NCBI GenBank assembly: GCA_902779125.1
Contig: CACZAC010000028.1
Location: forward strand, 1 to 32,107
Length of the DNA stretch: 32,107 nt
Reading direction: 5' to 3'
Source: an uncultured Bacteroidales bacterium
Lineage (GTDB): Bacteria > Bacteroidota > Bacteroidia > Bacteroidales > Muribaculaceae
This document shows positions 1-17,513 of the stretch, in pieces (positions within the stretch are counted from its first letter, which is position 1; each line of letters begins with the position of its first letter). The notes beneath the pieces are model-generated. The model ran no database searches, was not told the DNA's origin, and saw only the letters and a program-made list of their open reading frames with translations. The position numbers and the translations under genes are program-made.

Positions 1-53
1 TTATCCTGTTTGCTGTAGAGGCTTGCTACTTTACCTGGTTCTTTGCCCTCTAA
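1..53 (+). CDS. Succinate dehydrogenase/fumarate reductase cytochrome b subunit, C-terminal fragment (partial)
   Basis: The third reading frame is open from the window edge to a TAA at 51-53. It encodes about 16 hydrophobic and aromatic residues (ILFAVEACYFTWFFAL), which look like the end of a membrane helix. In Bacteroidales the membrane-anchor cytochrome b gene sits directly before the flavoprotein gene. This position, 36 bp before frdA, therefore supports it being the tail of that anchor. The fragment is too short to identify on its own. The call rests mostly on gene order. Confidence 0.55.
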   Translation, partial: ILFAVEACYFTWFFAL

Positions 54-89
54 TCGCTGAGTATTAACCTTTTAAAATTTGTAACACAA

Positions 90-2090
90 ATGGAAGAAAA
101 CAAAATGAACGCTCAGCCCATCGATTCCAAGATTCCCGAGGGACCCATCGCTGAGAAGTGGACCAACTATAAGGCTCATCAAAAACTCGTCAACCCCGCC
201 AACAAGCGTAAACTCGACATCATCGTCGTGGGTACCGGTCTGGCAGGTGCGTCGGCAGCCGCCACGCTGGGCGAGATGGGCTTCAACGTGCTGAACTTCT
301 GCATCCAGGATTCTCCCCGCCGTGCTCACTCGATTGCTGCACAGGGTGGTATCAACGCAGCCAAGAACTATCAGAACGACGGTGACTCGATTTACCGCTT
401 GTTCTACGACACCGTCAAGGGTGGTGACTACCGTGCCCGCGAGGCCAACGTATATCGCCTGGCCGAGGTATCCAACAATATCATTGACCAGTGCGTGGCA
501 CAGGGTGTTCCCTTCGCCCGTGAGTATGGTGGTCTGCTCGCCAACCGTTCATTCGGTGGCGCTCAGGTAAGCCGCACGTTCTACGCCAAGGGTCAGACCG
601 GTCAGCAGTTGCTGCTCGGTGCCTACTCGAGCCTGAACCGCATGATTCATGCCGGCAAGGTGAAGAGCTACAACCGCTATGAGATGCACGACGTGGTGAT
701 TATCGACGGCCGTGCCCGTGGTATCATCGCCAAGAACCTCGTGACCGGTAAGCTCGAGCGTTTTGCTGCCCACGCTGTGGTTATCGCCACTGGTGGTTAT
801 GGCAACACCTACTTCCTGAGCACCAACGCTATGGGTTGCAACTGCTCGGCTGCCATGGCTTGCTATCGCCACGGCGCTTATTTCGCTAACCCCGCCTATG
901 TTCAGATTCACCCCACCTGTATCCCCGTTCACGGCGACAAGCAGTCCAAGCTGACGCTGATGAGTGAGTCGTTGCGTAACGACGGCCGCATCTGGGTGCC
1001 CAAGAGCATCGAGGACGCCAAGAAGCTGCAGGCAGGTCAAATCAAGGGCAGTGACATCCCTGAGGAGGAGCGCGACTACTATCTGGAGCGCCGCTATCCC
1101 GCCTTCGGTAACCTCGTTCCCCGTGACGTGGCCAGCCGCGCCGCCAAGGAGCGCTGCGACAAGGGCTTCGGCGTGAACAACACCGGCAAGGCTGTATTCC
1201 TCGACTTCAGCGAGGCCATCAACCGCCTGGGCATCGACGTGATTCGTCAGCGCTACGGCAACCTGTTCGACATGTATGAGGAAATCACCGACGTGAATCC
1301 TGGCGAGCTCGCCAACGAGATTAACGGCGTGAAGTACTACAACCCCATGATGATTTATCCCGCTATCCACTACACGATGGGCGGCATCTGGGTTGACTAT
1401 GAGTTGCAGACCAGCATCAAGGGTCTGTTCGCTATCGGTGAGTGCAACTTCAGTGACCACGGTGCAAACCGCCTGGGTGCTTCGGCACTGATGCAGGGTC
1501 TGGCTGACGGTTACTTCGTGCTGCCTTACACCATCCAGAACTACCTGAGCGACCAGATTACTGTGCCTCACTTCTCGACCGACTCACCCGAGTTTGACGC
1601 TGCTGAGAAGAAGGTTCAGGCCAACCTTGACAACCTGATGAGCATCAAGGGCAAACGCTCTGTTGACAGCATCCACAAGGAGTTGGGTAACGTGATGTGG
1701 GACTATGTGGGCATGGCCCGCACCAAGGAGAGCCTTGAGACCGCGTTGCAGAAACTCAAAGACCTGCGCAAGGAATTCGAGACCAACCTGTTCATCCCCG
1801 GCACCCAAGAGGGCATGAATATAGAGCTTGACAAGGCATTCCGCCTGCGTGACTTCATCACCATGGGTGAACTGATTGCCTATGACGCCTTGAACCGTCA
1901 CGAGAGCTGCGGTGGCCACTTCCGCGAGGAGCACCAGACCGAGGAAGGCGAGGCCAAGCGCGACGACGAGAACTTCTTCTATGTCGCCTGCTGGAAGTAC
2001 AACGGCAACGATGAGACCGCTCCCACGCTCATCAAGGAACCGCTCCACTACGAGGCCATCAAGGTCCAGACGCGTAACTATAAGTCATAA
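90..2090 (+). CDS. frdA: Fumarate reductase/succinate dehydrogenase flavoprotein subunit
   Basis: Catalytic FAD subunit of the membrane-bound quinol:fumarate reductase/succinate dehydrogenase complex, which interconverts fumarate and succinate on the cytoplasmic face. The 666-residue product has a Rossmann GTGLAG at about 48-53. HSIAAQGG near 80-87 contains the histidine that normally carries FAD covalently. QIHPT lies mid-protein, and [13 protein letters not shown] is in the C-terminal part of the FAD domain. The long form with an extended N-terminus is typical of Bacteroidetes. The start at 90 gives MEENKM; an in-frame ATG at 105 is almost as good. A 28-bp gap separates it from frdB, so the two belong to one operon with the cytochrome b gene upstream. 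In these anaerobes the enzyme mainly reduces fumarate, though sdhA would be an equally valid name. Confidence 0.96.
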
Positions 2091-2118
2091 TCAACCACAT
2101 TAAAATTCATCGAATACA

Positions 2119-2874
2119 ATGGATACAAGTATAAGCTTCAAACTTAAGGTTTGGCGTCAGGCCAACGCTCACGCCGAGGGCCGCTTTGAGACCTACGAGA
2201 TGCGCGACATCCCCACCGACACCTCCTTCCTCGAGATGATGGACATCCTCAATGAGCAGCTCATCGAGAAGGGCGAGGAACCTGTCACCTTTGACCACGA
2301 CTGCCGCGAGGGTATCTGCGGTATGTGCTCGCTCTATGTTAACGGTCACCCCCACGGTCCCGCTACGGGTGCTACTACCTGCCAGCTCTACATGCGCCGC
2401 TTCAAGGATGGTGATACCATCACCGTTGAGCCCTGGCGCTCGGCTGCATTCCCCGTAATCAAGGACTTGATGGTTAACCGCAACGCTTTTGACCAGATTC
2501 AGCAGGCTGGTGGTTACGTGAGCTTCCAGACTGGCGGTGCCCAGGATGCCAACGCCATCCCCATCAGCAAGGAGGCCGCCGACGAGGCTATGGACAGCGC
2601 TACCTGCATCGGCTGCGGTGCCTGTGTCGCTGCTTGCAAGAACGGTTCGGCCATGCTGTTCCTCAGCGCCAAGGTCAGCCAGTTTGCTCTGCTGCCCCAG
2701 GGACGTGCCGAGGCAAAGCGCCGCGTGAAGGCCATGCTCGCTAAGATGGACGAACTGGGCTTCGGTAACTGCACCAACACCGGTGCCTGTGCCGCCGAGT
2801 GCCCCAAGAACATCAAGCTGAGCAATATCGCCCGCTTGAACCGCGAGTTCATCTGCGCTAAGTGCAGCGATTGA
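2119..2874 (+). CDS. frdB: Fumarate reductase/succinate dehydrogenase iron-sulfur subunit
   Basis: Electron-transfer subunit linking the flavoprotein to the membrane cytochrome b. The 251-residue protein shows a plant-type 2Fe-2S site in its N-terminal half (C62, C67, C70, C88 in CREGICGMC and TTC). C163, C166, C169 and C173 ([11 protein letters not shown]) are followed by C218, C224 and C228 ([12 protein letters not shown]). Together these supply the 4Fe-4S and 3Fe-4S clusters. All expected cysteines are present and the length is normal for the family. It follows frdA closely and is the last gene of the operon, with a strong hairpin just downstream. The direction of catalysis in vivo, fumarate reduction rather than succinate oxidation, is inferred from the anaerobic lineage. 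Confidence 0.96.
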
Positions 2875-11423: not shown

Positions 11424-12923
11424 ATGATTTATCCGATTCTTTCGGCCGAGGAAGCCGCCGAATTTGTACAAAATGGCTTCACTGTGGGTGTTTCGGGCTT
11501 TACCTCGCCTGGTTGTCCTCAAGCAGTGCCCGTGGCCATCGCCGAGCGCGCCAAGCGCGAGCATGAGGCTGGTCGCGAGTTCAAGATTAACCTGTTCAGT
11601 GGCGCATCGACTAGCGACCACATCGATGGCGAGCTCACACGCGCCGACGCGTTGAACTTCCGCACCCCTTACCAGTCGCATCCCGACATGCGCAAGGCCA
11701 TCAACGCTAATGCCATCCACTATAACGACCGCCACCTGAGCGAGTTGGCACAGGAGTTCCGCTATGGTTTCTACGGCAAGATGGACATCGCCATCGTCGA
11801 GGCCCAGAGCATCACCGATGACGGCGAACTCATCCTGGGTACCTCGATGGGTAACACCGCCACTTGGCTCAAGATGGCCGATAAGGTGATTGTCGAGGTC
11901 AATGACCAGATTCCCGAGACCATCCGCGGCATGCATGACGTATATACACCCGTTGACCCGCCTTATCGTCGCGAGATTCCTATCTACACACCTCATGACC
12001 GCGTGGGTACTCCCACCGCCCATGTCGACCCCAAGAAGGTTATCGGCGTTGTCAAGACTTCGCTGCCCATCAGCAAGGAGGGTGCTTTCACCCCCGTTGA
12101 CGAGGTAACTGCCGCTATCGGCCGCAATGTGTGCGCTTTCCTCGTTAACGAGTTGAAGGCTGGCCGCATCCCCAAGGAGTTCCTGCCCCTGCAGAGTGGT
12201 GTGGGCAATATCGCCAACGCCGTGCTCGATGCCCTCGACAAGAGCGATGACATCCCCCCGTTTGAAATGTACACCGAGGTGATTCAGGACAGCGTGCTCG
12301 AACTGCTCGAGAGTGGCAAGTGTAAGTTTGCCAGCACCTGCTCGATGACCTTCTCCAGTGGTGCCATGATGGAATTCTTTGAGAAGGGTGAGGCTCTGCA
12401 CAACAAGGTGCTCATGCGTCCCAGCGAAATCAGCAACAACCCCGAGGTGGTTCGCCGTTTGGGCGTCATCACGATGAACACAGCCATCGAGGCCGACATC
12501 TATGGTCACATCAACTCGACCCACGTCAGCGGTACGCGCCTGATGAATGGTGTCGGTGGCTCGGGCGACTTCACCCGCAACGCTTACATCAGCATCTTCC
12601 TGTGCCCGTCCATCAAGAAAGACGATTGCATCAGTACCATCGTGCCCATGGTATCCTATCCCGACCACAACCCGCACTCGGTGGACATCATCATCACCGA
12701 CCAGGGTATCGCTGACCTGCGTGGCAAGGATCCCGTACAGAGTGCTCATGAAATCATCGAGAAGGCTGCTCATCCCGTTTATCGTCCCCTGTTGCGCGAG
12801 TACCTCAACCTCGCCAAGAAGGGCCACGTGATGATGAACCCCGACATCGCCTTCGCCATGCACAGCACACTGATTCACGACGGCGACATGCGCAAGACCG
12901 ACTTCGCCAAGTTCATGAAGTAA
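11424..12923 (+). CDS. Acetyl-CoA hydrolase/transferase family protein, probable succinate/acetate CoA-transferase
   Basis: Moves CoA between succinyl-CoA (or propionyl-CoA) and acetate. In succinate- and propionate-forming anaerobes this recycles CoA and yields succinate or acetate without loss of the thioester. The 499-residue protein has the N-terminal GFTSPGCPQAVP, QSGVGNIANAVL (257-268), the probable catalytic glutamate E285 in MYTEVIQD, and the late glycine loop GVGGSGDF (376-383). Its closest named relatives are AarC and Cat1-type enzymes. Propionyl-CoA:succinate transfer and simple acetyl-CoA hydrolysis are alternatives within the same family. The 151-bp leader is A-rich. A hairpin follows the stop, and the AT-rich island begins after that. 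Confidence 0.9.
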   Translation: MIYPILSAEEAAEFVQNGFTVGVSGFTSPGCPQAVPVAIAERAKREHEAGREFKINLFSGASTSDHIDGELTRADALNFRTPYQSHPDMRKAINANAIHYNDRHLSELAQEFRYGFYGKMDIAIVEAQSITDDGELILGTSMGNTATWLKMADKVIVEVNDQIPETIRGMHDVYTPVDPPYRREIPIYTPHDRVGTPTAHVDPKKVIGVVKTSLPISKEGAFTPVDEVTAAIGRNVCAFLVNELKAGRIPKEFLPLQSGVGNIANAVLDALDKSDDIPPFEMYTEVIQDSVLELLESGKCKFASTCSMTFSSGAMMEFFEKGEALHNKVLMRPSEISNNPEVVRRLGVITMNTAIEADIYGHINSTHVSGTRLMNGVGGSGDFTRNAYISIFLCPSIKKDDCISTIVPMVSYPDHNPHSVDIIITDQGIADLRGKDPVQSAHEIIEKAAHPVYRPLLREYLNLAKKGHVMMNPDIAFAMHSTLIHDGDMRKTDFAKFMK

Positions 12924-12956
12924 TAATTCTCATCAAGAAACTCTTAATAACTGTTA

Positions 12957-12985
12957 CTGCTGGTAGGTATAAAGCCTGCCAGCAG
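12957..12985 (+). terminator. Hairpin terminator after the CoA-transferase gene
   Basis: CTGCTGGTAGG (12957-12967) pairs with CCTGCCAGCAG (12975-12985) through one G-T pair, with a 7-nt loop. The tail is only weakly T-rich. It marks the end of the GC-rich upstream segment. The remaining gap up to 13184 is very AT-rich and holds two copies of TAACTCGTT and a -7 box. Confidence 0.65.
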
Positions 12986-13021
12986 TTGCAATATTAAAGG
13001 CGATACCATAAGACTTTTTAA

Positions 13022-13072
13022 TAACTCGTTGTCTTGATGTAAAAGTTGATGGAATTTGTTTTTTAACTCGTT
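13022..13072. repeat. Two direct copies of TAACTCGTT upstream of the island
   Basis: TAACTCGTT occurs at 13022-13030 and again at 13064-13072. The start-to-start distance is 42 bp, about four helical turns, and both copies follow a T-run. They lie 51 bp or more upstream of the -7 box at 13123. They might be operator half-sites or remnants of an insertion. No palindrome is visible. Confidence 0.4.
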
Positions 13073-13122
13073 ATTTTTTACGGAAATAGATTAAATAGAT
13101 TTTATTATTGAGGAATTATTAT

Positions 13123-13130
13123 TATTTTTG
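13123..13130 (+). promoter_or_regulatory. Candidate -7 element for the AT-rich island operon
   Basis: TATTTTTG fits the TAnnTTTG box and lies 54 bp before the kinase ATG. In such AT-rich sequence a chance match is likely, and no TTTG stands at the right -33 distance. Confidence 0.45.
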
Positions 13131-13184
13131 CATTGTGATATGATTAATTTATTATAAACTCTTTTACCTTTAAATATTTTCTTA

Positions 13185-13784
13185 ATGAATAAAAAATCGT
13201 TTGTTATTGGAGTTTCAGGTGCAACAGGATCTGGAAAGAGTTGGTTTGCTAAACAGGTCAAAGACTTGGCCAGTGATTCTATTGGCGTTTTCACCTTAGA
13301 CAGTTATTATAAGAATAATAATTATGTTAATTGCCTAAAATATAGGCATGATAATCCTGATGCGATTAATTATGATTTTGCGATTGTCGACTTGCAAAAT
13401 ATTATAAATGGTCACTCTATTCGAGTTCCACAGTATGATTATGAAACTCATAAAGTCATCAAGTATGATATAAAGGAGCCAATGCCCATCATTATTGTTG
13501 AAGGGTTGTTTGCCTTCTCAGATGAGCGATTAAGACATTTAATGGATTTTTTGGTTTGGATTGAGGCTGACTATGATGTTAGGTTGCAGCGTAGGATTAA
13601 TCGCGATATCAACGAGCGGGGTGATACTATTGATTCTGCAACCGAAAGGTTTACGTGTGATGCAGAACCGGCATTTCAAGAAATAATTTCAATAAATAAG
13701 CAGTATGCTGATTGCGTTATTTTTAATAATGGCAATAACCATGTTTCTAAAACGCTACTAATGTTAAAGAACTTGTTACAATGA
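13185..13784 (+). CDS. Uridine kinase-like P-loop nucleoside kinase
   Basis: A 199-residue protein with nearly every uridine kinase/phosphoribulokinase family motif: Walker A GATGSGKS (12-19), DSYYK (39-43), NPDAINYDF (57-65), PQYDYETHK (82-90), EGLFAF (106-111) and the arginine-rich lid RLQRRINRDINERG (133-146). It should therefore phosphorylate a nucleoside or similar sugar-containing substrate with ATP or GTP. The exact substrate is uncertain. It is probably not the housekeeping udk, because its base composition is far more AT-rich than the surrounding chromosome. Its stop overlaps the start of the next gene (ATGA), which implies translational coupling. It is the first gene of a four-gene AT-rich operon with a membrane protein, a transporter and a phosphoribosyltransferase. 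Confidence 0.88.
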   Translation: MNKKSFVIGVSGATGSGKSWFAKQVKDLASDSIGVFTLDSYYKNNNYVNCLKYRHDNPDAINYDFAIVDLQNIINGHSIRVPQYDYETHKVIKYDIKEPMPIIIVEGLFAFSDERLRHLMDFLVWIEADYDVRLQRRINRDINERGDTIDSATERFTCDAEPAFQEIISINKQYADCVIFNNGNNHVSKTLLMLKNLLQ

Positions 13785-15358
13785 AAGAAGGATATTATAA
13801 TAAAGTCAGATCTGAAAATAATAGATTAAGAGAAATTATTATTACTCACCGCCAATGGATTATATCAATCATGGGGATTGCGGTAATTATTGGAGGTGTC
13901 CTTTGTGATGCTAGGTGCGATAAGGTAATTGGAACAATTCTTGGACAAATTGGAAGTAGTCTTCTTGCTATTGGTATTGTTGCTGTTGTTTATGAAAGAT
14001 GGAAGGATAAAAATCGAGAAGGACGTTATTTTATAATGAACCCTGATAGAGTAGGAAGTGGTGAGGAATTGATAAATAATGCGAATATTGATATAAGTAG
14101 TGAAGGGAAAATTTTTCTAATTGGAAGAATGACTGAGGATAGTTTTATATCTAATAATTATGCATTTACAGTCTTATTAACTAAAACGTATTTTAAATTA
14201 CTCAATAAGGATATACCGCTTTTCTCGTATGGAACAACATTCAAGTATCTTGATCCTAGATGGAAAGATGGAAAATATCAAAGAGCATTTGAAAATGCCG
14301 TTAAACAGGGCTTAGGTCTAAATGTTTCTATTATTAATCCCATTTCAAATAAAATAATTGAATTAGAGAATGGGAAGGATGCCGCGATAAGAGAAGCCAA
14401 TAACACGATTCAACATTTTATAGAACTTATTAATGCATATCGACACCGTATTAAACAACCAATAGAATTACGACTTTCCACATATTTTTCTCCTTGTAGC
14501 TTTTCATCAATATCGTTTGCTAATGGAAGAGTAGTGCGTTCTTTGGATTTTAATTTTAGACATGACGAAAGCCGGCTTTGTCAAATTTATGATAATATTG
14601 AAGAGAGTGACAATATAAATAATAGTAATCATAAAGCCTTCTCCCAATTACTTTTCAGGAGATATAATAGATATTACCAAGAAAGTACGTTAGCATTAAG
14701 GTTCCCAATGGAAGATGAAGTCACGTTTCACATTCTAGGCATTCTTGAAGACGTGGTAGATAATTCGTCTGACAATACAAGTAAATATGTAAAACAGATC
14801 ATTTGCAACAATGATGAAGACTTAAGCATTATAAGTATAACCATTCGTTTATCTGATGGCAATGAATTAGGATGGCAAGTTAAGAGAGGCGAAAAATATG
14901 TAGAACTTAATCAAGATAATATATTCATTTTGTTCAATAAAGCTCCCAACGCTGATGAAAATTTGAATATCAATCAGGAAAATCCAAATCAAGTATCATT
15001 GAAAAATACAATTGTAGGGAATGTTTTATATGAATACTATCTGTTGACTGGTGGTTATTGCGATAGCGATTCTGAAGAAATAAAAGAAACAGAAACTGAA
15101 CGTAAAGAAGGTAAATTTGGTTATCGTTTCGATATTATGACATCTTTTGAAAAGAATGCTGATACGAGAACAGATTTTAATAGGGACAATGAGTTCGTAT
15201 TGATAGGTGAGATAGTCAGTACGCCAGAAAGAGTAGTCCCCAAAGAACCAATTAAGAGAGTTGCTTTAGGTCAGTTCAATCTAAAAAACAAATTGATAAA
15301 TTTAGGTTTTAGTTCTAATCAAGCATCGACAATTATTGCAAAGATAAATAGTATTTGA
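13781..15358 (+). CDS. Hypothetical two-helix membrane protein, possibly with a PLD-like domain
   Basis: I do not recognise this 525-residue protein. After a basic N-terminus come two membrane helices (about 25-42 and 50-71), then a large cytoplasmic part. Residues about 90-250 alternate strands and helices (KIFLIGRMTEDSF, GLNVSIINPISNKIIE, IRLSTYFSP-like segment followed by SSISFANGRVVRSLDFNF). This reminds me of HKD-lacking phospholipase D-like sensor domains such as DUF5919; that is inference without alignment. Residues about 300-480 appear to be a second domain, with an acidic stretch near 430-445. The gene overlaps the kinase by 4 bp and ends 2 bp before the transporter ATG. Composition is strongly AT-rich. 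A sensor, scaffold or membrane effector role is possible. Confidence 0.8.
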   Translation: MKEGYYNKVRSENNRLREIIITHRQWIISIMGIAVIIGGVLCDARCDKVIGTILGQIGSSLLAIGIVAVVYERWKDKNREGRYFIMNPDRVGSGEELINNANIDISSEGKIFLIGRMTEDSFISNNYAFTVLLTKTYFKLLNKDIPLFSYGTTFKYLDPRWKDGKYQRAFENAVKQGLGLNVSIINPISNKIIELENGKDAAIREANNTIQHFIELINAYRHRIKQPIELRLSTYFSPCSFSSISFANGRVVRSLDFNFRHDESRLCQIYDNIEESDNINNSNHKAFSQLLFRRYNRYYQESTLALRFPMEDEVTFHILGILEDVVDNSSDNTSKYVKQIICNNDEDLSIISITIRLSDGNELGWQVKRGEKYVELNQDNIFILFNKAPNADENLNINQENPNQVSLKNTIVGNVLYEYYLLTGGYCDSDSEEIKETETERKEGKFGYRFDIMTSFEKNADTRTDFNRDNEFVLIGEIVSTPERVVPKEPIKRVALGQFNLKNKLINLGFSSNQASTIIAKINSI

Positions 15359-15360
15359 TT

Positions 15361-16098
15361 ATGGTTCTTCTATATTGGATTATAGGCCTTTTACTCACGG
15401 TTTATGTGTCTATATGGACCATAAAAAAGAATCGAGAGATTGGCTTTACGATATTGACAGTTCTGTTGTCAGGTTATATATTGATATCTAATATTTTAAC
15501 GCCAAGGTTGTCATTATTCAATCTTGGGTTTACACAGTTGACTGTCGTGACGGGGAGTCTTATATGGCCGTTTACTGCTCAGTTATCGGATATGATTAAT
15601 GAGGTGTATGGTAAAAGGAAGACCTTCATTGCTGTAGCTTTGGGTTACTCTTTGAATTTACTATTTGTTCTGTTTGTGTTTATGGCCAATTCTACTCAGC
15701 CTATTTGGGACACATCTATGGAAGAGTTTTGGCAATCATATTTTTTGCCGTCAGGGAGGGTGTTTCTCGCTTCGACAGTCAGCTTTATAGTTTGTCAGTT
15801 GATAGACATCAATGTGTTTTCTTTCTTAAAAGAAAAGTTTCGAAACCGTGAAGAGACTTCAAGAAATAGTGCGTTAATTAGTTTTAGTTCGCTAAGGAGT
15901 GTGCTAAGTGATGTGATTAACATGGTCTGTGATGCTGTTTTGTTTACATTGCTTGCATTTGCTCTTGTCTTACCACTAGATTCATTGATTGATTTAGTAA
16001 TCGGCAGTATTATATTCAAAGGTTTACTATCTATAATAGATACGCCATTATTTGCGCTTTTTAGAGTAAGTATAAAAAACATACAGAGGCAAGAATAA
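15361..16098 (+). CDS. YhhQ/VUT family transporter (queuosine precursor transporter-like)
   Basis: An integral membrane protein of 245 residues with six or seven helices. The family hallmark is PFTAQLSDMINEVYGKRKT, corresponding to the conserved D-x-x-N-E-x-Y-G-K-K segment of COG1738. Family members import 7-deazaguanine precursors of queuosine (preQ0, preQ1) or related bases. The substrate here is unproven. A TTG at 15355 would overlap the preceding gene by 4 bp; I prefer the ATG at 15361, 2 bp after its stop. AT-rich like its neighbours. It is followed after 6 bp by a phosphoribosyltransferase, suggesting that the imported compound is a nucleobase converted to a nucleotide. I see no QueA, QueG, Tgt or other Q-pathway gene in the window. 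Confidence 0.85.
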   Translation: MVLLYWIIGLLLTVYVSIWTIKKNREIGFTILTVLLSGYILISNILTPRLSLFNLGFTQLTVVTGSLIWPFTAQLSDMINEVYGKRKTFIAVALGYSLNLLFVLFVFMANSTQPIWDTSMEEFWQSYFLPSGRVFLASTVSFIVCQLIDINVFSFLKEKFRNREETSRNSALISFSSLRSVLSDVINMVCDAVLFTLLAFALVLPLDSLIDLVIGSIIFKGLLSIIDTPLFALFRVSIKNIQRQE

Positions 16099-16104
16099 AA
16101 CAAT

Positions 16105-16605
16105 ATGACAGAAATCACAAAACTATCATGGGAGGATATCGAGAATTGCTGTATTAAGTTGTATGAGCAAATCCTGTCTATTAATATCAAGATTGATACT
16201 ATAGTGAGTATTCAGCGTGGCGGGTGCATCCCTGGAGTTATTTTAAGCCATATGCTTCATGTAGATGAGTGCTATACTATTGGAATCAGAACTACTTGTT
16301 CTGATAATGTTCGCTCGAGAAGGTTAGATGATCCTAAAATACAGATACCGGAGACACTAAGAAGTATTTCTGGTAAGAATGTTTTAATTGTTGATGATGT
16401 AACTAATACAGGAAACACTTTAGTGTATGCAAAAGAAGAAGTTCTTAAATTTAATCCTTGTAATTGTTTCACTTCTGTGTTGATTTGGGACGGCGATAAT
16501 AGTTTTGAGTGTAAAGCTGATTTGTTTGCTCGTCACACCCCGGGTTGGGTTGTCTTTCCATGGGAAGTGGTTAGTGGTTCAGAAGCAAAAAGAAATCGAT
16601 TATAA
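16105..16605 (+). CDS. Phosphoribosyltransferase, COG2236/Gpt-like
   Basis: A 166-residue type I phosphoribosyltransferase. The PRPP-binding loop is VLIVDDVTNTGNTL (93-106), with the paired acidic residues D97-D98 and the TNTGNT loop. The pyrophosphate loop is RGG (38-40). The C-terminal WVVFPWE (148-154) is the hood motif seen in xanthine/guanine phosphoribosyltransferases and COG2236 proteins. It should join a purine-like or modified base to PRPP, giving the 5'-monophosphate. The base is unknown. It ends the AT-rich operon, 6 bp after the transporter gene and 17 bp before the GC-rich EamA gene, so composition changes abruptly at its 3' end. Confidence 0.88.
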   Translation: MTEITKLSWEDIENCCIKLYEQILSINIKIDTIVSIQRGGCIPGVILSHMLHVDECYTIGIRTTCSDNVRSRRLDDPKIQIPETLRSISGKNVLIVDDVTNTGNTLVYAKEEVLKFNPCNCFTSVLIWDGDNSFECKADLFARHTPGWVVFPWEVVSGSEAKRNRL

Positions 16606-16622
16606 CAATTACAGTCTTTTTA

Positions 16623-17513
16623 ATGAACAATAAGGACTTGAAGGCACATGGCGCGATGTTGCTGGCCATGGTGCTGTTCGGGCTGATGGCGACGTTCAGT
16701 AAGGACGTGCTCGCCAACGGTGGCATCACGGGACCGCAGCTGGTGGCGTTCCGGGTCATTGGGGCAGCATTGCTCTTTTGGTTGGGGTCGATTATTGTGC
16801 CGCAGCAGCGCATTGAGCGTCGTGATTTCCTCAAGATTGCCGGTGCGGGCTTTTTCGGCTTTGCGTTGGCTCAGGGTGGCTACATCGTGGGCTTGAGCTT
16901 CACTTCGCCCATCAATGCCACCATCGAGCTGACGACCATGCCCATCTTCACCCTCATCCTGTCGTCTATCCTGTTGCACGAGCGCATCACGCCACGGCGT
17001 GCACTGGGCATCATCATGGGTTTTGTGGGTGCCATACTGCTGATTACACGTACAACCGCGGGTGATGGCAGGCCAACGGACTTCCGTGGTGACATCCTGA
17101 TTCTGATATCACAGGTGGGGTATGCATTCTACCTGACACATTATTCTAAGGTCATTCGCAAGTATGACGCTTTCACGTTCAACAAGTGGACATTCACCTT
17201 TGCGAGCCTGTTTATCTTGCCCTTCACTTTGCCTCACATCATGCAGATTGACTGGGCGGGAATGAGTGCCCGAACAGCGAGCGAAATCATCTATATCGTG
17301 GCTGGGGCGACATTCTTCACCTTCCTGCTGGTGGTGTTTGCCCAGCGTCGGTTGCTGCCCACCACTGTGAGCGTATATAATTATGTTCAGCCCTTTGTCG
17401 CGGTCGTTGCCAGCATGGCGATGGGTCTTGCCGCACCGCAGTGGATGCATGGCGTGGCTGCCGCACTTATCTTCACAGGTGTGTGGCTCGTTGTCAACAA
17501 TAAAAATAGTTGA
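16623..17513 (+). CDS. EamA/DMT family transporter
   Basis: A 296-residue membrane protein with about ten helices arranged as two EamA repeats. The first repeat starts near residue 10 (AMLLAMVLFGLMATFSKDV). The second starts near 155 (GDILILISQVGYAFYLTHY). VYNYVQPFVAVVASM and ALIFTGVWLVV at the end are typical of the drug/metabolite exporter superfamily. Members export amino acids, nucleobases or drugs; the substrate cannot be read from sequence. It lies only 17 bp after the phosphoribosyltransferase but has the GC-rich composition of the chromosome, so it probably predates the island. It may now be transcribed from the island promoter, since I see no good promoter of its own. Confidence 0.92.
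   Translation: MNNKDLKAHGAMLLAMVLFGLMATFSKDVLANGGITGPQLVAFRVIGAALLFWLGSIIVPQQRIERRDFLKIAGAGFFGFALAQGGYIVGLSFTSPINATIELTTMPIFTLILSSILLHERITPRRALGIIMGFVGAILLITRTTAGDGRPTDFRGDILILISQVGYAFYLTHYSKVIRKYDAFTFNKWTFTFASLFILPFTLPHIMQIDWAGMSARTASEIIYIVAGATFFTFLLVVFAQRRLLPTTVSVYNYVQPFVAVVASMAMGLAAPQWMHGVAAALIFTGVWLVVNNKNS

Follow-up and report, generated by a model that had tools for sequence, protein, structure and literature searches.

The window analysed here is the whole of contig C28, 32,107 bases from a bin of 3.35 Mb and 97 contigs (an uncultured Bacteroidales bacterium), and the subject of this study is an AT-rich island of four genes within it, which code for a putative nucleoside kinase, a 525-aa membrane protein, a transporter and a phosphoribosyltransferase (PRTase). 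The island sits in an insert of 3,705 bp (12925..16629, no strand assigned), the breakpoints of which were set by exact comparison with contig C14 of G082, the closest relative among the genus genomes searched, where 222 unrelated bases occupy its place. Within the compared stretch, the flanks of G082 are 97.3% identical to the window up to 12924 (3,118 columns) and 95.9% identical from 16630 (4,662 columns). An earlier reading made from the letters alone (the sequence-only reading) had placed the island at 13014-16615; the island stands, with limits that prove slightly short. Its GC content is 33.2%, against 53.7% in the remaining contig, and sliding 3.4-kb windows outside the insert (n=433) have a mean GC of 0.537 (sd 0.022) and a minimum of 0.485, compared with 0.332 for the insert. 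Third-position GC is 0.23-0.36 in the four genes and 0.74 and 0.69 in the two flanking genes, in agreement with the striking AT-richness reported earlier. The horizontal acquisition that had been proposed is borne out by both the breakpoints and the composition: the four-gene block is horizontally acquired, foreign-looking DNA.

The four open reading frames are all on the plus strand, are open throughout and span 13185-16605. They follow an AT-rich leader (12925..13184, plus strand) with an imperfect 19-nt direct repeat at 13017 and 13059. The kinase gene (13185..13784, 199 aa) overlaps the gene of the 525-aa protein (13781..15358) by 4 bp. The transporter gene (15361..16098, 245 aa) comes after a gap of 2 bp if its ATG start is used, or overlaps by 4 bp with a TTG start at 15355 (247 aa), and the PRTase gene (16105..16605, 166 aa, protein P0004) begins 6 bp further on, so that the coordinates match the earlier description of four genes in one direction with overlaps or gaps of no more than 6 bp. 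The resident EamA transporter gene (16623..17513, plus strand) lies 17 bp downstream, and its first codons are supplied by the insert, since agreement with G082 starts only at 16630. A terminator scan gave no candidate site between the PRTase gene and this one. No riboswitch was found in the leader: nothing in the window reaches the Rfam gathering score, and a search of 12800-16900 up to E=5 gave three implausible weak matches, with no preQ1 riboswitch among them. Neither an integrase gene nor a tRNA gene was found at the insert, no repeats of 12 bases or more link its two ends, and a nucleotide search of plasmids with the insert gave no match.

The uridine kinase, COG1738 and PRTase signatures on which the sequence-only reading was built were recovered in profile searches: Pfam PRK (1.4e-32) for the kinase, Vut_1 (1.6e-28, 100.4 bits vs a cut-off of 27.2) and TIGR00697 (queuosine precursor transporter, 86.1 bits vs a cut-off of 50.95) for the transporter, and Pfam Pribosyltran (6.2e-16) for the type I PRTase. 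The latter carries most of the argument. Its relatives were collected in a genome scan with an alignment, from which 80 of 199 were kept (27 bacterial and 53 archaeal, some with short flanks), and QueC, QueD or QueE genes were found in the flanks of 24 of the 27 bacterial relatives vs none of the 53 archaeal ones. The other three bacterial loci have FolE alone (L066) or none of these genes (L053, with one short flank, and L074, which has a transposase-like frame immediately upstream). A thymidylate-kinase-like gene is also present in 22 of the 27 bacterial loci. Plasmids gave 23 matching records with identities of up to 35%. Six were inspected: two from Streptomyces, one from Streptosporangium and one from Rhizobium (28%) have the PRTase beside QueE together with FolE, QueD and/or QueC, an archaeal one has no such genes, and one from Neisseria is unannotated there. 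Six viral contigs also carry a related PRTase, five of them (L022-L026, with L025 and L026 being near-copies) with QueE and FolE and/or QueD, and one (L027) with none of these.

Trees were built from 66 and 48 of 106 gathered rows, with mostly haloarchaeal rows omitted and, for the second, long rows (most of them) and near-copies as well. In the 66-row tree, P0004 groups with 30 PRTases of 7-deazaguanine clusters (support 99/89), and L053 stands just outside (98/84). In the 48-row tree, 25 cluster rows group together with P0004 at 98/75 and on their own at 90/53, so that P0004 appears to adjoin the cluster PRTases rather than to lie clearly inside them. A constraint that placed P0004 with 16 archaeal rows was rejected (p-AU 0.016). 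The same constraint without P0004 was not (p-AU 0.31), nor was a group of P0004 and L053 alone (p-AU 0.146). P0004 thus probably belongs with the bacterial PRTases of 7-deazaguanine clusters and not with archaeal or purine Gpt enzymes; its long branch makes the tree evidence good but not final.

A comparable combination of genes is found in Clostridia. Loci L071 (1-8525) and L075 (212-5300) have genes for a QPTR transporter, a QueC-like protein, a PRTase and a thymidylate-kinase-like protein in a row, followed by a radical SAM enzyme, a DegT aminotransferase, a small gene and an exonuclease. L056 (6716-11351), L074 (9980-14202) and L055 have the run without its QPTR part in the DNA compared, and without the QueC-like gene in L074; the small gene and/or the exonuclease gene are there where the contig continues. 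The PRTases of these runs are among the closest to that of the island (35-36% identical). The run of L071 looks mobile, because a tyrosine integrase gene (Pfam) stands at one of its ends and an integrase-like frame (judged by eye) at the other. Like the island, the Clostridia run brings QPTR, PRTase and kinase genes together. It differs in having a QueC-like gene (except in L074), modifying enzymes and a kinase of another family, and neither the 525-aa protein nor the island kinase has a relative there. The run is possibly an undescribed 7-deazaguanine nucleotide pathway in itself. In two archaeal (Mnemosynella) loci, L063 (~7287, 10001) and L094 (~7600, 10001), a QPTR gene likewise lies within about 3 kb of a related PRTase gene.

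The four-gene block itself was not found in any other genome, plasmid or phage searched. The samples of genus, family, order and phylum genomes used for these searches overlap; a search of 197 other family genomes with the PRTase gave nothing at E<=1e-6, and of 394 others from the phylum just 10 have a match, a distant one. With no relative of the 525-aa protein found and the PRTase so rare and distant, the co-occurrence as a block at varied loci envisaged in the sequence-only reading has failed to appear so far. A literature search gave no title or abstract opening naming the gene set, which is no proof of its being unpublished.

The transporter (P0003) is by its profile matches a very divergent member of the QPTR/COG1738 family, passing the Vut_1 and TIGR00697 cut-offs but failing the narrower YhhQ model (14.6 vs 252 bits). 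It is the sole Vut_1 match of the bin at E<=0.001 and adjoins neither que genes nor a gene for tRNA-guanine transglycosylase (TGT). Matches to it occur in 95 of the 394 other phylum genomes (23-34% identity); viral contigs gave none in a search that finds close relatives only. In a tree of 37 rows its end branch (6.9) is by far the longest and no partner is supported, the nearest rows by path being the archaeal L094 and L063, again without support. Known members are reported to carry preQ0 and preQ1, or queuine, the latter in Chlamydia trachomatis (PMC11130926), and the family of the transporter and its PRTase neighbour suggest a substrate of the 7-deazaguanine type. Such a substrate had been guessed at in the sequence-only reading, and it is now backed by the place of the PRTase among its relatives and by their gene contexts, as well as by the transporter family.

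The kinase, a divergent member of the uridine-cytidine kinase family, shares its profile, its P-loop and a His aligned with position 93 with the Udk/UCK enzymes. It falls under the cut-offs of the NCBIfam uridine kinase models (171.8 vs 180 and 159.3 vs 220.3 bits) and stands beside a PRTase and a QPTR. Two entries of the Thermus uridine-cytidine kinase have His or Tyr at position 93, which we take to have a role in specificity, and because of this His a pyrimidine nucleoside is a possible substrate. The bin has three further PRK-family matches, one of which (on contig C13, 33% identical over 174 aa) scores better. No viral contig matched the kinase in a search limited to close relatives; six phage records did at 31-37%, and in the one inspected, a fecal contig (L152), the neighbouring genes do not look related.

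Hydropathy places two membrane helices near the N-terminus of the 525-aa protein (residues ~26-44 and ~52-70), ahead of a large remainder. The whole protein has no match in Pfam, NCBIfam, PADLOC or PHROG, its pieces have none that convinces, and no known nuclease, protease or pore domain was found in it in profile searches. No convincing relative was found in 100 other genomes of the genus, 296 of the family and 392 of the order, and none in plasmids, phages, or genome and viral contigs (the latter two in single-protein scans that find close relatives only). A match at the family level (E=0.0041) proved to be a frame with four stops, and 13 matches at E<=0.05 in the 392 genomes of the order are within chance expectation; the best of these (E 6.6e-4) covers only the membrane helices, in a 156-aa frame, and was taken as chance after alignment. 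AlphaFold models made without an alignment were too poor to use (mean pLDDT, a per-residue confidence score, of 34 for the whole protein and 41 for residues 80-275). A Foldseek search with the 80-275 model found nothing at E<=0.001; the leading matches (nitrilase-like, E 0.03) were not used. A degenerate phospholipase-D-like domain in the same residues was suspected from the predicted order of elements; it is supported by no search and is not claimed.

Bases of the queuosine type are salvaged as such for tRNA, and are also used in DNA, in natural products and, as recently found, in phage defence. Building on the gene order, the insertion, the protein families, the affinity of the PRTase and the gene contexts of its relatives, all of which are observed, we infer substrates, a direction of reaction and a role for the 525-aa protein. 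The reading that we favour, tentatively and at somewhat under an even chance, is that the island came in by horizontal transfer as an operon that salvages a base of the 7-deazaguanine type. The QPTR-family protein would import the base (preQ0, 7-carboxy-7-deazaguanine (CDG), preQ1 or queuine) or its nucleoside, and the PRTase would join the base to phosphoribosyl pyrophosphate to give the 5'-monophosphate. Starting from imported nucleoside, the uridine-kinase-like enzyme would arrive at a monophosphate of this kind as well; alternatively, it would phosphorylate another nucleoside of the pathway. The membrane-anchored 525-aa protein would be the user, sensor or gate of the resulting nucleotide. 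With three genes of known family to be used, the simplest scheme is import, conversion of a base to its nucleotide and a kinase step for the nucleoside; the run that QPTR and PRTase share with QueC-like and kinase genes in L071 and L075 speaks for it. If true, import and conversion to a free nucleotide without synthesis genes would be a new branch of salvage, and the question of what the nucleotide is used for would arise. Each of the enzyme families is already known; what is new to us is the combination of genes, its lack of any for synthesis, and the orphan protein. The island offers four testable genes, one of them for a membrane protein without known relatives. An extension that we consider very doubtful is that a membrane-anchored receptor or effector, of an undescribed family, uses the nucleotide as its signal or cofactor. 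The island would then be an outside-fed, scavenging equivalent of the immune chemistry that the type IV cyclic oligonucleotide-based antiphage signalling system (CBASS) carries out with 7-deazaguanines.

Several observations weigh against a salvage operon for 7-deazaguanines. The branch of P0004 is long in both trees (2.4 and 3.2), the protein is in no starred set of the 48-row tree and is at most 36% identical to any row of it, and among the rows called cluster PRTases are L074, the flank of which lacks que genes, and L066, which has FolE alone. P0004 has an Asp in a column that holds Asn in 29 of the 30 cluster PRTases and in L053, in an alignment that is gappy nearby; in 54 archaeal rows the column holds Leu (51) or Lys (3), and Lys is the residue of the Pyrococcus and one Sulfolobus (GpT-2) purine enzymes. 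This Asn is a marker devised in this analysis, with no published definition. In its tree, the transporter stands apart from the QPTRs of L071, L075 and phage MS1 that are linked to clusters, and the nearest solved structures of the kinase, the Thermus and human uridine-cytidine kinases, argue for a pyrimidine nucleoside. None of the four genes is a CDG or preQ0 synthesis gene, and the insert has no obvious enzyme that would use the product. Both TGT and QueC are present in the bin, so that salvage for tRNA is not needed and tRNA modification alone would be a weak reason to keep the island.

The site between the CoA-transferase and EamA genes bears on one of the alternatives. All of the 70 genus genomes searched with the region (own bin included) gave some match, and among the matches listed at least 19 places besides the window have both neighbour genes on one contig. 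The gap between them is up to 222 bp in 7 places, 725-767 bp in 4 and 1.7-9.0 kb in 8, and because these sizes differ so widely the site is variable in the genus. The DNA was compared for 16 of these 19 places, and in relatives L130-L135 and L141-L149 the aligned ends are 27 bp to 9 kb apart. The occupants are often lipoprotein-like (judged by eye). Six of them were searched, giving two TPR proteins, a UvrD-type helicase (L145, in AT-rich DNA with a GC of 0.35), two AAA ATPases (L133 and L141) and one without a match; the helicase and both ATPases match PADLOC profiles of candidate families. No relatives of the four island proteins were found at E<=1e-3 in the 16 loci of the site.

Ordinary nucleobase or nucleoside salvage, in which the PRTase is a Gpt-like purine enzyme, the kinase is one for uridine and cytidine, the substrate of the transporter has drifted and no 7-deazaguanine is involved, is rather unlikely in our judgement. 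The solved structures nearest to the PRTase are indeed purine PRTases (from Sulfolobus and Pyrococcus), which together with those nearest to the kinase suit such a pathway, as do the missing Asn and the divergence of the transporter, the long end branch of which suggests that its substrate may have changed. The PRTase trees and the gene contexts of the relatives argue in the opposite direction, and the bin already has a better-scoring protein of the Udk family. Salvage could also serve tRNA, with import of queuosine, its phosphorylation by the kinase to queuosine-5'-phosphate, and a PRTase running in reverse with pyrophosphate to free queuine for TGT (in eukaryotes, Qng1/DUF2419 is the comparison for such a release). 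In favour of this, the bin and the 16 relatives searched alongside it all have TGT, nucleosides are the substrates of the kinase family, and a transport of queuine is reported for the Chlamydia trachomatis QPTR cited above. This explanation nevertheless strikes us as very improbable: QueC in the bin makes salvage unnecessary, PRTases favour the formation of nucleotides, and the relatives of this one are located in biosynthetic settings.

A defence or signalling module built on nucleotide chemistry was entertained in the sequence-only reading; here, the product of the operon, a 7-deazaguanine nucleotide or conjugate, would control the membrane-anchored 525-aa protein, and the latter would act on cell or phage. 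Such a module would fit the variable site, where the AT-rich helicase gene and the two ATPase genes are among the occupants, the orphan two-helix membrane protein in the middle of the operon, and the 7-deazaguanine chemistry of type IV CBASS, also a subject of work on qatABCD (PMC11996544, PMC13279940, PMC13329287). It has gained no direct support, and we regard it as improbable. None of the four proteins has a convincing match to a defence family, the best in PADLOC being that of the PRTase to ShosT (E 1e-5, 23.5 bits, 57 residues), which reads as a general PRTase match; no domain of a known nuclease, protease or pore was found in the 525-aa protein, and many of the other occupants of the site are lipoprotein-like or TPR proteins. 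The island is classed here as a variant of 7-deazaguanine salvage chemistry and not as a defence system. That the four AT-rich genes arrived together or stepwise and have no common function would agree with the block being seen in no other genome searched, and is quite improbable given their tight overlaps, single direction and similar GC and third-position GC, and given that Clostridia have relatives of two of these genes in one run.

Among described systems, the tubercidin and toyocamycin clusters are comparable in that their PRTases, too, are of type I and belong to a 7-deazaguanine setting. The tubercidin enzyme, TubE, is reported to use CDG and not deazaguanine in vitro and to be 39% identical to ToyH of the toyocamycin cluster (PMC6112128). 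The island does not have the FolE, QueD, QueE and tailoring enzymes of these clusters, and is tied to them via the gene contexts of its relatives and not by direct alignment, the TubE sequence being outside the trees. With the dpd DNA-modification islands and type IV CBASS, the salvage reading has 7-deazaguanine chemistry in common. YhhQ is reported from about 9% of dpd islands (PMC11888242), but profile searches recognised no TGT-like, QueC-like or other such gene in the insert.

A second version of the neighbourhood, without the island, lies on contig C57 of the same bin (L130), with a CoA-transferase that is 91% and an EamA protein that is 85% identical to those of the window; the two neighbourhoods are 75-95% identical by segment. 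The bin thus holds either two organisms or two copies of the neighbourhood, and genes on its other contigs may therefore not belong to the carrier of the island. The first 2.9 kb of the window (1-2866) are 94.5% identical to positions 10087-12955 of L130. In C57, L132 and L133 this stretch is found on the EamA side; in the window its place is 5' of the genes for PGI and CoA-transferase, which amounts to a rearrangement.

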